DNA of 64,000 bases from Defluviicoccus sp. (GTDB lineage: Bacteria; Pseudomonadota; Alphaproteobacteria; MPNO01). Every line of letters begins with the position of its first letter. The first letter of the stretch is position 1. Shown one piece after another: positions 12,837 through 19,640 of this stretch. The notes beneath the pieces were generated by a model, which saw nothing but the letters and a program-made list of their open reading frames with translations, ran no database searches and was not told the DNA's origin. The stretch covers positions 1 to 64,000 of the forward strand of contig JAPPGP010000126.1 in assembly GCA_028821395.1 (NCBI GenBank), read 5' to 3'. The position numbers and the translations under genes were made by a program.

Positions 12837-15800
12837 TCAGCCCGGCGGGCCGTACCCGCCCCCGCCCGGGGTCTCGATGACGAAGCGGTCGCCCGCGTTC
12901 ATCTGGGTCATGTCGGTGCCGGTCAGCTCGTCGACCGTGCCGTCGGCGCGCTCGACATAGTTGCGGCCCGTCTTGCCCGGCCTGCCGCCAGCCGCGCCGA
13001 AGGGCGGCACGCGGCGGTGGCTGGAGACGATCGCCGCCGTCATCGGCGCCTGGAACAGCACCTTGCGGACGATCCCGTTGCCGCCCTTGTGGGCGCCGTC
13101 GCCGCCCGAGCCGTCGCGGATGGAGAAGGACTCCAGCACCACCGGGAAGCGCCATTCAAGGATCTCGGGGTCGGTGGCGCGCGTGTTGGTCATGTGGGTG
13201 TGGACCGCGTGCGCCCCGTCGAAATCCGGCCCGGCGCCGGCGCCGCCGCAGATGGTCTCGTAGTTCTGGTATCCCGCGTTGTCGCCGAAGGTGAAGTTGT
13301 TCATCGTCCCCTGGCCGGCCCCCATGATGCCGAGCGCGCCGATCAGCGCGTTGGTCACGGCTTGCGATGTCTCGACATTGCCGGCAACCACGGCGGCCGG
13401 GTAGCGCGGGGCCAGCATGCAGCCCTCGGGGATGATCACCCTGAGCGGCTTGAGGCAGCCGGCATTCAGCGGGATCTCGTCGTCCACCATCAGCCGGAAC
13501 ACGTAGAGCACCGCCGCCATGCACACCGATGACGGCGCGTTGAAGTTGCTGTTCTGCTGCTCGGACGTGCCGGTGAAGTCGATGATCGCCTCGCGCCGCT
13601 CGCGGTCGACCTTGATGTCGACACAGATCTTCGCGCCCGAATCCATCTCGTATTCGTAAGCCCCGTCGGTGAGCACGCCGAGCACCCGGCGGACGCATTC
13701 CTCGGCGTTGTCCTGGACGTGCTTCATATAGGCGTGGACCACGTCGAGCCCGAAATGGGCGACCATCTTGCGCAGCTCCTGGACGCCCTTCTCGTTGCCC
13801 GCGATATGCGCCTTGAGGTCGGCGAGGTTGTTCTTGAAGTTGCGCGTCGGGTACGGCGCGCCGGTGAACAGCGCCTCGGTCTCCTTTTCCAGCAGCCGCC
13901 CGCCGGAGACCAGCTGGAAGTTGTCGATCAGCACGCCTTCCTCGTCGATATGCGTGGAATCGGGCGGCACCGAGCCCGGCGTGGTGCCGCCGATATCGGC
14001 GTGATGGCCGCGCGCGGCGACCCAGAACAGGATGTCCTTCCCGGCCTCGTCGAATACCGGGGTGATCACCGTCACGTCGGGCAGATGGGTCCCGCCGTTA
14101 TAGGGCGTGTTCAGCATGAACACGTCGCCCGGGACGATGGTGCCGGCGCGCTGCTCGGCGACGGTCCGCACGCTCTCGCTCATCGAGCCGAGATGGACCG
14201 GGATATGCGGCGCGTTGGCGACCAGGCTGCCGTCGGGCCCGAAGATCGCGCAGGAGAAGTCGAGCCGTTCCTTGATGTTGACCGAGTAGGAGGTGTTCTG
14301 CAGCACCACCCCCATCTGCTCGGCGATCGACATGAAGAGGTTGTTGAACACCTCCAGCATCACCGGGTCGACCTCGGTGCCGACCGAGGCCTGGCCCGGC
14401 CGCGGCACCACGCGGTTGAGGATCATCTGGTCGTAGCGGTTGATCTCGGCCGCCCAGCCGGGCTCGACCACGGTGGTCGCGTTGGCCTCGATGATCACCG
14501 CGGGGCCGCTGACCTTGCAGCCCGGCTGCATCGCCTGCCGGTCGTAGAGCCGGGTCGCGCGGCTTTCGCCCGCCATGTAGGTCTCGACCTCGTCGACCGG
14601 CGGCGGCGCCTCGGCGGCGCCGGTCTCAAGCGCCGGATCGACCACGTCGGGGGCGCCCGCGATCACCTCGACGGTCACCGCCTCGACGATGTGGTTCTTC
14701 TCCGGCGCGATGAAGCCGTATTGCAGGTGATGCGCCGCCTCGAACTCGGCGACGATGCTCTCCCGGTCGGCGAAGTCGACGATCAGCGGCGAATCCGTCC
14801 CCTCGTAGCGCAGATGCACCTTGCGCAGCGCGTAGGTGCGCGCGGGATCGCCGCCCTGGCGCGCCATCTCGGCGCGGCCCTCACCTTCCATCCCGTCGAG
14901 CGTCCTGCCGACGTCTTCAAGCAGCGCATCGTCGAGGATCGCCTCGACGGCGCGCTCGCGCATCACGCGGAGGTCGGCGAGCCCCATGCCGTAGGCCGAA
15001 AGCACGCCGGCGAAGGGGTGGATGAACACGCGGCCGATGCCGAGCGAGTCGGCGACCAGGCAGGCATGCTGCCCGCCCGCCCCGCCGAAGCAGTTGAGCG
15101 TGTAGCCGGTCACGTCGTGGCCGCGCTGGATCGAGATCTGCTTGATCGCCTTGGCCATGTTCTCGACCGCGATCATCAGGAAGCCGTCGGCGACCTCGAC
15201 CGGGGAGCGCGCGTCGCCGGTCTCGCGCTCGATCTCGGCGGCCAGCGCCGCGAACTCTTGGCGCACCACGTCTTCGTCGAGCGGCTCGTCGGCGCCCGGG
15301 CCGAACACCTTGGGGAAGAAGCTCGCGCGGATCTTGCCCACCATCACGTTGGCGTCGGTCACGCAGAGCGGCCCGCCCCTGCGGTAGCAGGCGGGGCCCG
15401 GGTTGGCGCCCGCCGAATCCGGGCCGACCCGGTAGCGCGTGCCGTCGAAATGGAGGATCGAGCCGCCGCCGGCGGCGACGGTGTGGATCTGCATCATCGG
15501 CGCGCGCATCCGCACGCCCGCGACCAAAGTCTCGAACGAGCGCTCATACTCCCCGTCATAATGCGCGACGTCGGTCGAGGTGCCGCCCATGTCGAAGCTG
15601 ACGATCTTGTCGTAGCCCGCCATCGCCGACGTCCTGACGGCGCCGACGATGCCGCCCGCCGGACCCGACAGGATGCTGTCCTTGCCGCGGAAGAAGCGCG
15701 CATCTGCGAGCCCGCCGTTCGACTGCATGAACATCAGCCGGGTCTCGCCGAGCTCCTGGCGGATGCGGTCGACATAGCGCCTGAGGATGGGCGAGACATA

Positions 15801-16457
15801 GGCGTCGACGACGGTGGTGTCGCCGCGCCCGACCAGCTTCATCAGCGGGCTCACCTCGTGCGAGACCGAGACTTGGCCGAAGCCCACCTCGCGGGCGAGC
15901 TTTGCTACCTGGATCTCGTGGTCGTGGTGGCGGTAGCCGTGGACGAATACCACCGCGACCGACTCGATGCCGTCGCGCCTCGCCTGCTCCAGCGCTTCGC
16001 GGGCGCCGTCGAGATCGACCGGCACCAGGACTTCTCCGTCGGCCGAACAGCGCTCGTCGATCTCGATCACGCGCTCATAGAGCAGCTCCGGCAGCACGAT
16101 ATGCCGCGCGAAAAGCAAAGGCCGGTTCTGGTAGCCGATACGGAGCGCGTCGCGGAACCCCCGGGTGATCAGCAGGACGGTGCGGTCGCCCTTGCGTTCC
16201 AAGAGCGCGTTGGTCGCGACGGTGGTTCCCATCTTGACCGTGTCGATGGCATCGGCCGGAATGTCGGCCGCCGGATCGACTCCGAGCAGGTCGCGTATGC
16301 CCTGAAGCGCCGCGTCCTCGTAGCGCTCCGGGTTCTCCGACAGGAGCTTGTGGGTGACCAACTCGCCGCCCGGCTGTTGCGCGACGAAATCGGTGAACGT
16401 CCCGCCGCGGTCGATCCAGAACTGCCAGCGGCCGTTGCGCAAAGAAGCATCGCTCAC
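12837..16457 (-). CDS. Fused hydantoinase/5-oxoprolinase family protein (HyuA-HyuB in one polypeptide)
   Basis: [15 protein letters not shown]...[13 protein letters not shown] (HyuA) followed by [43 protein letters not shown] (HyuB). GTG start chosen at [20 protein letters not shown]. Confidence 0.9.
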
Positions 16458-16648
16458 GTCGGCACCCCATCCCCGTTTTGCGGTCTTGAACCGGCGAAAG
16501 CCGCGAGCTTCGCGCGAGCCCACGGCATCGCGGCGCCGTTCCGCTTCCGGCGGTCCGCGATTACCCGGTCTGATACTATCTTTGCCGCGATGATACAATT
16601 TCCCCGCCGCGGACGCGAAGCGGACGGAGCAAGGTTGTCGAGGACATC

Positions 16649-17965
16649 ATGGACGACATGAGGCGCACGGCGCGCGGCGACGGCTGGGTCGATGCGGCGG
16701 CCGGCACGGTGAGCCGCGAGGCCTTCGTGAGCGAGGACGTGTTCCGCCTCGAGCTCGACCGCATCTTTCACCGGCTCTGGGTGTTCCTCGCCCATGACAG
16801 CGAGATCCCCGACCGGGGCGACTATGTGGTGCGCAGCATGGGCAGCGTGCCGGTGCTCGTCGTGCGCGGCGCGGACGGCGAGCTGCGCGTGCTGCTCAAC
16901 TCCTGCCGTCATCGCGGCACCAAGCTGTGCCGGGGCGAGGCCGGCAACGCGCGGCGCTTCGTCTGCCCCTATCACGGCTGGAGCTACGCGCTCGACGGCG
17001 GGCTGATCGCCACCGGCTACGAGGATCGCCTGCCGCCGGAGATGGACAAGGCGGATTGGGGGCTGGTGCCGGTGCCCCGGCTGGAGACCTACAAGGGGCT
17101 CGTCTTCGCCGCCTGGGATCCCGGCGTGCCCGCGCTCCGCGACTATCTCGGCGACATCGCCTGGTATCTCGACACGCTGTTCTGGCGCTCGCCAAGCGGG
17201 ATGGAGGTGCTCGCCCCGCCGCATCGCTGGCGCGTGCGGGCCAACTGGAAGATCGGCGCGCTCAACTTCATCGGCGACAGCCAGCACGTGCGGACCACCC
17301 ATGCCGGGCCGATCACGCTCGACCGGGTGCGCTCGGAGAAGGACGGCTTCTACGTGACCGGCGGGGACAGCTTCCAGGTCGTCACCGATCAGGGCCATGG
17401 CTGCACCCTCACCTATCTCGCCCCCGGCATGCCCGAGGAGAACTACCTCACCCACCCGCCGGCGCTCGGCGCGGCCTATGCGGAGACGCTGGGCGCGGAC
17501 CAGCTCGCGATGCTGCACCATTTGCGGGTCTTCGTCGGCAATGTGTTTCCCAATTTCTCGTTCATCGAGTCGCAGGTCGCGCTCGGAGAGAAGGCGGTGA
17601 TCGTCCGCCAGTGGCAGCCGCTCGGCGGCACCGAGATGGAGATTCTGAGCTGGGTGCTGGCCGAGCGCGAGGCCGACGACGGCTACAAGCAGCGCGCGCT
17701 CAGGCACGGTTTCCACAATTTTGGCGCGGCGGGCGTGTTCGAGCAGGACGATTTGGAGATCTGGGCCTCGGCGACCCAGGCGAGCGACAACCCGATCGCG
17801 CAGCGCTACCCCTACAGCTTCCATTCGAGCCTTCCCTTCGACCGGTCGCCCTGCGCGGCGGGTACGCGGCCGGGAACCACCTATCGGCGCTCCGATACCG
17901 AGGTCGCGCAGTTCGCTTTCATGCGTCGCTGGCAGGCGGCCATGGATTCCGCCGACCGGGCATGA
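16649..17965 (+). CDS. Rieske aromatic-ring-hydroxylating dioxygenase, alpha subunit
   Basis: Rieske motif CRHRGTKLCRGEAGNARRFVCPYHGWSYALDG; catalytic-domain NFIGDSQHVRTTHAG. Confidence 0.93.
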   Translation: MDDMRRTARGDGWVDAAAGTVSREAFVSEDVFRLELDRIFHRLWVFLAHDSEIPDRGDYVVRSMGSVPVLVVRGADGELRVLLNSCRHRGTKLCRGEAGNARRFVCPYHGWSYALDGGLIATGYEDRLPPEMDKADWGLVPVPRLETYKGLVFAAWDPGVPALRDYLGDIAWYLDTLFWRSPSGMEVLAPPHRWRVRANWKIGALNFIGDSQHVRTTHAGPITLDRVRSEKDGFYVTGGDSFQVVTDQGHGCTLTYLAPGMPEENYLTHPPALGAAYAETLGADQLAMLHHLRVFVGNVFPNFSFIESQVALGEKAVIVRQWQPLGGTEMEILSWVLAEREADDGYKQRALRHGFHNFGAAGVFEQDDLEIWASATQASDNPIAQRYPYSFHSSLPFDRSPCAAGTRPGTTYRRSDTEVAQFAFMRRWQAAMDSADRA

Positions 17966-18483
17966 ACGGCGAACCGCCCGCCAAGGCATCCGACGATGCG
18001 GCGTTCGTCGAGGTGCTCCGCTTCCTCCATCGCGAAGCCGCGCTGCTCGACGGCCGCGACTACGACGCCTGGCTCGGCCTGCTGACCGGCGACATCCGCT
18101 ATGTCGTGACCGCCCGCGTCTCGCGCCCGGAGGAGCAGGGGCCGCTCGACTACGCCATCGTCGACGAGGACGCGGACACGCTCCGGCTGCGGGTCCGCCA
18201 GATCTCGGATCCGAAGCTCACCTGGGCCGAGAACCCGGCGACGCTCACGCGGCGCTTCGTCTCGAATCTGGAAGTCGAGGATGCGGACGCCCCGAACCGC
18301 CATGTCGCGCACAGCAACCTGCTGGTCTACCGGCAGCGCGGGACGGCGCCCGACGGCGACTTCTACGCCGGGCACCGGCGCGACGTGCTGAGGCGCGTCG
18401 ACGGGTCCCTGAAGATCGCCGACCGCCTGGTCCGGCTCGACCACAACGTGCTGTTCGACGGATCGCTCAGCGTCATTCTCTAG
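17962..18483 (+). CDS. Ring-hydroxylating dioxygenase, beta subunit
   Basis: ATGA overlap with alpha. FLHREAALLDGRDYDAWLGLLTGDIRYVV...RRFVSNLEV...VAHSNLLVYRQR. Confidence 0.9.
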   Translation: MNGEPPAKASDDAAFVEVLRFLHREAALLDGRDYDAWLGLLTGDIRYVVTARVSRPEEQGPLDYAIVDEDADTLRLRVRQISDPKLTWAENPATLTRRFVSNLEVEDADAPNRHVAHSNLLVYRQRGTAPDGDFYAGHRRDVLRRVDGSLKIADRLVRLDHNVLFDGSLSVIL

Positions 18484-18536
18484 CCGCGCCGGGCGTGGCA
18501 TAGTCCGGTCCGGGATACCCGTCCGGAGGAGCCCTC

Positions 18537-19640
18537 ATGCCGGCTGTCGACTACGCCGAGGCGCCCGCCCCGGTGCGCGCGGACATCGTCGCGGCGCATG
18601 ACCGCGCTTGGCGGCGGATCGCCCGCCCGGGAACCTGGCATTCGGGAGAGACCCGGGTGCGCATCGCGGCCGAGACCCGGAATGCGCGGAACTGCCGGCT
18701 CTGCGCCGCCCGCAAGGCGGCACTTTCGCCCTACTCCGTCGCGGGCGAGCACGACAGCCTCGGCAACCTCCCCGACGTCATGGTCGACGCCATCCACCGG
18801 ATCGCCACCGATCCGGGGCGACTCACGCGGGCGTGGTACCGGGGACTGCTCGGCGACGGCCTCGTCGACGCCGAGTACGTGGAGACCGTGGGCGTCGTCT
18901 GCACCACGATATCGGTCGACACCTTCGCCCGCGCGATGGGCATGGATCCGTTGCCGCTGCCGGAGCCGGTGGCGGGCGAGCCCATCCGTGTCCGCCCGGC
19001 GAGCGCGTCCCGGGGCGCGGCCTGGGTGCCGTGGATCGCGCCGGGCGACGCGGCGGATGACGAGCTCGACATGTTCAGCCCGGCGCACGCGAACATCCAC
19101 CGGGCGATGAGCCTGGTGCCCGCCGAGGCGCGCGGCTTCTTCGATCTGGTGGAGACCCAGTACCTCCAGCGCCATCAGATGCGCGACTTCGACAGGGAGT
19201 TCCGCGCCATCACCCACGCGCAGATCGAGCTGATCGCGGGCCGGATATCCGCGATCAACCAATGCGTCTACTGAACCACCAGCCACGCCCTGCTGCTCCG
19301 TGCGAGCGGCGAGCACAAGGGTCAGGCGATCGACCTCGACGCGGTCATCGGCAAGGCCGACGGCGACGGCGGCATCCCGAACGGCGCCGTCCTGGCGGCC
19401 TTCGCGGAGGCGGTGGTGGGCGACGACGGGGTGAAGCTGGCCGAGACGCGCAGCGCCGTCGTCGACGCGCTGGGGCCCGAGGCGCTGGTCGATTCCTGCG
19501 GCGTGGCGGCGACCTTCAACGCGATCGACAGGGTTGCGGACGCGACCGGCATCCCGATCGACGAGAAGCGGATCGCGGTGACCGCGGACCTCCGCGACCG
19601 GCTCGGCATCGACCGCTTCCCGTCGCGGTCGCAGGAATAG
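18537..19640 (+). CDS. Putative selenocysteine-containing AhpD/carboxymuconolactone decarboxylase (CMD)-like protein; TGA at 19272-19274 proposed to encode Sec246 in CVYU-TTS-H
   Basis: ATG with GGAGGA RBS. ORF to 19274 ends INQCVY(TGA). Same frame continues without stop to TAG at 19640: TTSHALLLRASGEHKGQAIDLDAVIGKADGDGGIPNGAVLAAFAEAVVGDDGVKLAETRSAVVDALG... CxxU-xxx-H fits the AhpD CxxCxxxH core. Confidence 0.85.
19288..19321 (+). promoter_or_regulatory. Bacterial SECIS-like stem-loop downstream of the in-frame UGA
   Basis: CCC-TGCT-GCTC-[CGTGC]-GAGC-(GGCG)-AGCA-(CAA)-GGG. 4+4 bp core stem with 4-nt 3' bulge and outer 3 bp. Apical loop contains GU about 26 nt after the UGA. Confidence 0.6.

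Follow-up and report, generated by a model that had tools for sequence, protein, structure and literature searches.

The gene located at positions 18,537 to 19,640 of the analyzed stretch of Defluviicoccus sp. DNA (64,000 nucleotides, hereafter the window) is judged, from sequence comparisons and with a probability of about 0.93, to encode a genuine selenoprotein. It adds one more member to an established family, the AhpD-related CFYUT family NF041238, predicted in 2005 and modelled by NCBI, and does not define a new one. The analysis adds modestly to what was available: a Cys form was not found in the sampled genomes, and about five NF041238 paralogues are present per genome in Defluviicoccus.

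The reading frame spans 367 codons, from an ATG to a TAG at 19,638-19,640, and the TGA at codon 246 is its sole in-frame interruption. The read-through product, 367 aa long, contains the motif C243-V-Y-U246-T-T-S-H250 and, at residues 52-56, the sequence NCRLC. The TAG is separated by 11 bases from the end (19,652) of a convergent Lrp/AsnC gene; a frame staying open past the TGA up to this point had been described in the original prediction, and both its coordinates and the gap were reproduced. The features of the region are collected in Table 1. Of the 79 frames in the GC-rich window that end in TGA and have 200 codons or more, as many as 24 stay open for longer than the 121 post-TGA codons of the selenoprotein frame, so that an open frame by itself proves little. 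The selenoprotein claim therefore needs evidence from homology, from a SECIS element and from the genome, and all three support it.

Table 1. Features of the selenoprotein gene and of its upstream region, in window coordinates
Feature	Position	Strand	Basis
Rieske ring-hydroxylating oxygenase alpha subunit, upstream; possibly same operon	16649..17965	+	Pfam, NCBIfam
Ring-hydroxylating oxygenase beta subunit, upstream, ends 53 bp before ATG	17962..18483	+	NCBIfam
Shine-Dalgarno-like GGAGGA, 6 nt before ATG	18525..18530	+	sequence
Predicted selenoprotein gene, NF041238 family, 367 aa, Sec at codon 246	18537..19640	+	NCBIfam 495 bits; TGA in 42/42 aligned homologues
CRLC, CxxC of the N-terminal half (C53, C56)	18693..18704	+	present in 38/42 homologues
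Putative active-site motif C-V-Y-U-T-T-S-H (C243, U246, H250)	19263..19286	+	sequence, alignment
UGA, predicted to be read as selenocysteine	19272..19274	+	sequence, alignment
SECIS-type hairpin, 6-bp stem, CGUGC loop, 18 nt from UGA to stem	19293..19309	+	91.4% pairing; CGT codon 36/42

Comparison with the NCBIfam models revealed a match to NF041238 (AhpD_rel_CFYUT, "alkylhydroperoxidase-related (seleno)protein") of 495.2 bits, against a cut-off of 175 (E 1.2e-148). The alignment spans the TGA, and the read-through protein covers positions 1-356 of the 357 in the profile. The in-frame UGA falls within the CxYUT motif, as membership of the family requires, and the motif deviates only at residue 244 (CVYUT for CFYUT), a change common in the family. 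The Pfam CMD model was also matched above its cut-off, by a region spanning the Sec site, and TIGR01926 was matched by residues 220-341 with 45.7 bits, below its cut-off of 81.8. According to Table 1 of a 2026 review (PMC13188914), NF041238 corresponds to "hypothetical protein 1" of the Sargasso Sea selenoproteome, reported in 2005 as a CXXU protein with no known function, for which Cys homologues were counted at that time (PMC1088965). The CxxU motif and the length are shared with this family, and the match is full-length. The protein had originally been proposed as a new selenoprotein, which does not hold at the family level, since NF041238 already models it and the review includes it; its assignment as an AhpD/CMD-like protein was right, being sustained by NF041238, by Pfam CMD and by sequence and fold matches to solved structures. 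The AhpD-like (TIGR01926-type) and CMD-like (PF02627) CxxU selenoproteins share with it the C-terminal fold and the position of Sec, but their models correspond to about one domain, whereas the window protein is twice as long and contains an extra N-terminal half.

A set of 42 homologous genes, five of them from the window's own genome, was aligned, and TGA was found at codon 246 in every one, with no Cys form at this codon in the set. The closest relatives, 80-89% identical, come from four other Defluviicoccus assemblies, all with TGA at the same codon. Within the order, the family was detected in 22 of 27 genomes; each match covering the site has the TGA, while those without it are fragments stopping before the site. 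No additional carriers emerged from 399 genomes sampled across the phylum. Homologues match the read-through protein up to its C-terminus, and the dN/dS values relative to the four congeners, 0.20-0.29 for the codons past the TGA as against 0.16-0.21 for those preceding it, reveal purifying selection past the TGA, so that the downstream part is coding.

Four more full-length NF041238 selenoprotein genes (L049-L052; contigs C164, C227, C174 and C164 of G000), 36-52% identical to the window gene, were found in the same genome, and the congeners also contain about five copies each. A short AhpD-like frame, L037:202-594 of G027, with the motif CFYUTQSH and an in-frame TGA, apparently encodes a single-domain AhpD-like selenoprotein.

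In bacteria, the SECIS hairpin follows shortly after the UGA and has a G in its apical loop. In the window gene, a hairpin with stem CUGCUC/GAGCGG is located about 20 nt after the UGA. In the alignment of the 42 genes its loop G is invariant, and pairing is preserved in 91.4% of the cells, versus 33-54% when the hairpin is slid along the alignment; compensatory, two-sided changes in the stem are few. Codon 254 (L254) is CTC in 41 of the genes and codon 255 (R255) is CGT in 36, as compared with about 10% CGT among the other Arg codons there. Folded as a single sequence, the region 19,262-19,330 has an energy no better than that of shuffled sequences (z 0.03), so that the case for a SECIS rests on conservation; Rfam models, at gathering thresholds, gave no match in the window. 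Both position and loop fit the bacterial SECIS described in the literature (PMC1088965), and the hairpin, which is preserved at synonymous sites, is classified here as a predicted SECIS element.

The window's genome contains a tRNA-Sec with anticodon TCA (UCA), adjacent selA and selB genes and a selD gene, all detected above the respective cut-offs. Within the class, selA is found in all 19 genomes with an above-cut-off NF041238 match, versus 41 of the 290 genomes overall (hypergeometric P ~9e-19, uncorrected for phylogeny). Six other genomes have an NF041238 gene (L061, L062, L064, L075, L080 and L081) at a distance of about 2-5 kb from selA, and in several of these selB is also nearby, together with selD or a fusion of a pyridine-nucleotide reductase with SelD; this closeness provides independent support for a role of Sec. 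Several computational checks had been named beforehand together with the original prediction. Alignment of homologues across the TGA gave matching C-termini, an invariant TGA column and no Cys form; TGA was retained in the four congeners and in all site-covering members, so that it is not a sequencing error; conservation was present downstream of the TGA; and selA, selB, selD and tRNA-Sec were all located in the same genome. The proposed full-length selenoprotein of about 367 aa, with Sec246 in a CxxU motif, passes all of them.

Other explanations of the TGA were evaluated against these data. It might be a true stop, closing a 245-aa protein followed by non-coding sequence, or marking a pseudogene: in the rest of the genome TGA serves as a normal stop, and it terminates three of the five NF041238 copies there, and comparable open frames arise commonly by chance in the window. 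Such a product, however, would be cut within the active-site motif, and the conservation of the family to the C-terminus, the purifying selection past the TGA, its invariance in the 42 genes and the co-occurrence with selA make this reading very improbable; it was rejected on the conservation data. Decoding of UGA as another residue, by code reassignment or suppression, is even less probable. The frame would indeed be open whichever residue is inserted, but other copies of the family in the same genome end in TGA, the genome encodes the sel genes and a tRNA dedicated to Sec, and both the hairpin and the CxxU position suit Sec; reassignment was rejected on the TGA terminators of the sister copies, the Sec machinery and the hairpin. 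The least credible possibility, negligible in practice, is a sequencing or assembly error in a Cys codon (TGC or TGT). The fragmented state of the assembly (266 contigs, 5.3% contamination) could favor it, but it was rejected, since four further Defluviicoccus assemblies and all site-covering members have TGA at this codon too.

The AlphaFold model of the selenoprotein, obtained from the 42-sequence alignment with Cys substituted for Sec, has a pLDDT of 94.9 and a pTM of 0.94, and is continuous through the Sec site. When the whole model was searched with Foldseek, structures with the AhpD core ranked at the top, over about 200 columns and with a target TM of 0.73, at weak E-values (best 1.4e-3). 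By sequence, the C-terminal half matches the solved AhpD-like peroxidases 6k40 (E 1e-7), 2oyo and 3c1l. With the D. radiodurans AhpD peroxidase (PDB 6k40) it shares the CxxC/U...H motif, the E-12-C spacing and the fold; unlike that enzyme, the window protein has Sec in place of Cys and an added N-terminal half. In the model, helices 37-61/80-133 look like a repeat of the arrangement formed by helices 227-261/283-337. When the two halves were compared as profiles, C53-C56 aligned with C243-U246 (P 7e-4), although BLASTP revealed no match between them. A protein made up of two tandem AhpD/CMD-like halves, as suggested at the outset, is therefore likely, if not proven, on the model and a weak profile comparison. 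The N-terminal CxxC is absent from four of the 42 genes, including one of the five copies in the window's genome, and thus cannot be essential to all members. Divergent members L052, L066, L067 and L085 are without it and have an intact CFYUT site.

Residues E231, C243, U246 and H250 are invariant in the 42 sequences, and their spacings equal those of Glu118, Cys130, Cys133 and His137, the catalytic residues of M. tuberculosis AhpD. This layout agrees with the idea that C-V-Y-U-T-T-S-H is the AhpD pattern with Sec replacing the second Cys and, together with the fold, suggests by analogy that the protein most likely, and rather probably, acts through Sec as a peroxidase or in thiol-disulfide chemistry. 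In the proposed mechanism, the hairpin would recruit SelB carrying Sec-tRNA(UCA), and insertion of Sec246 at the UGA would yield the 367-aa protein. Its C-terminal half has the AhpD/CMD peroxidase fold, with E231, C243, U246 and H250 as the predicted active site and Sec246 in the place of the AhpD cysteine which attacks the peroxide. Sec246 would most likely reduce a hydroperoxide, or some other oxidized or electrophilic substrate, would then pair with C243 as a selenenylsulfide, and would finally be regenerated by thiols, for example by thioredoxin or by the CxxC of the N-terminal half.

The gene closely follows the alpha and beta genes of a Rieske ring-hydroxylating oxygenase, and a thioredoxin reductase gene is located beyond Lrp in the window. 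A gene for a hydantoinase A/B (oxoprolinase-type) fusion, at 12,837-16,598 on the minus strand, is divergent from the oxygenase genes. It is possible, if rather unlikely, that the selenoprotein is not a peroxidase and acts, for instance, as a thiol-disulfide exchange factor or as an enzyme for the breakdown of aromatic or halogenated compounds, serving the adjacent oxygenase. The oxygenase arrangement, common to four congeners, the presence of the Bmp8 debrominase among the Foldseek matches and the diversity of AhpD-fold enzymes would favor such roles. The Rieske context, however, is limited to Defluviicoccus, other copies of the family have other genes as neighbors, and the layout of E, C, U and H is that of AhpD. 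More speculatively, the two-half AhpD selenoenzyme, with about five paralogues per genome in the genus, might be obligately Sec-dependent and have copies specialized for different oxidative pathways, the window copy for aromatic-ring oxidation within the operon of the Rieske oxygenase. The N-terminal CxxC might then even relay electrons to Sec246 inside the protein itself.

Gene callers treating UGA only as a stop truncate the window protein within its active site. In Defluviicoccus, about five selenoprotein genes per genome are apparently devoted to this one AhpD-related family; its many copies, among which no Cys form was seen, make it well suited to learning what AhpD-type chemistry gains from Sec.
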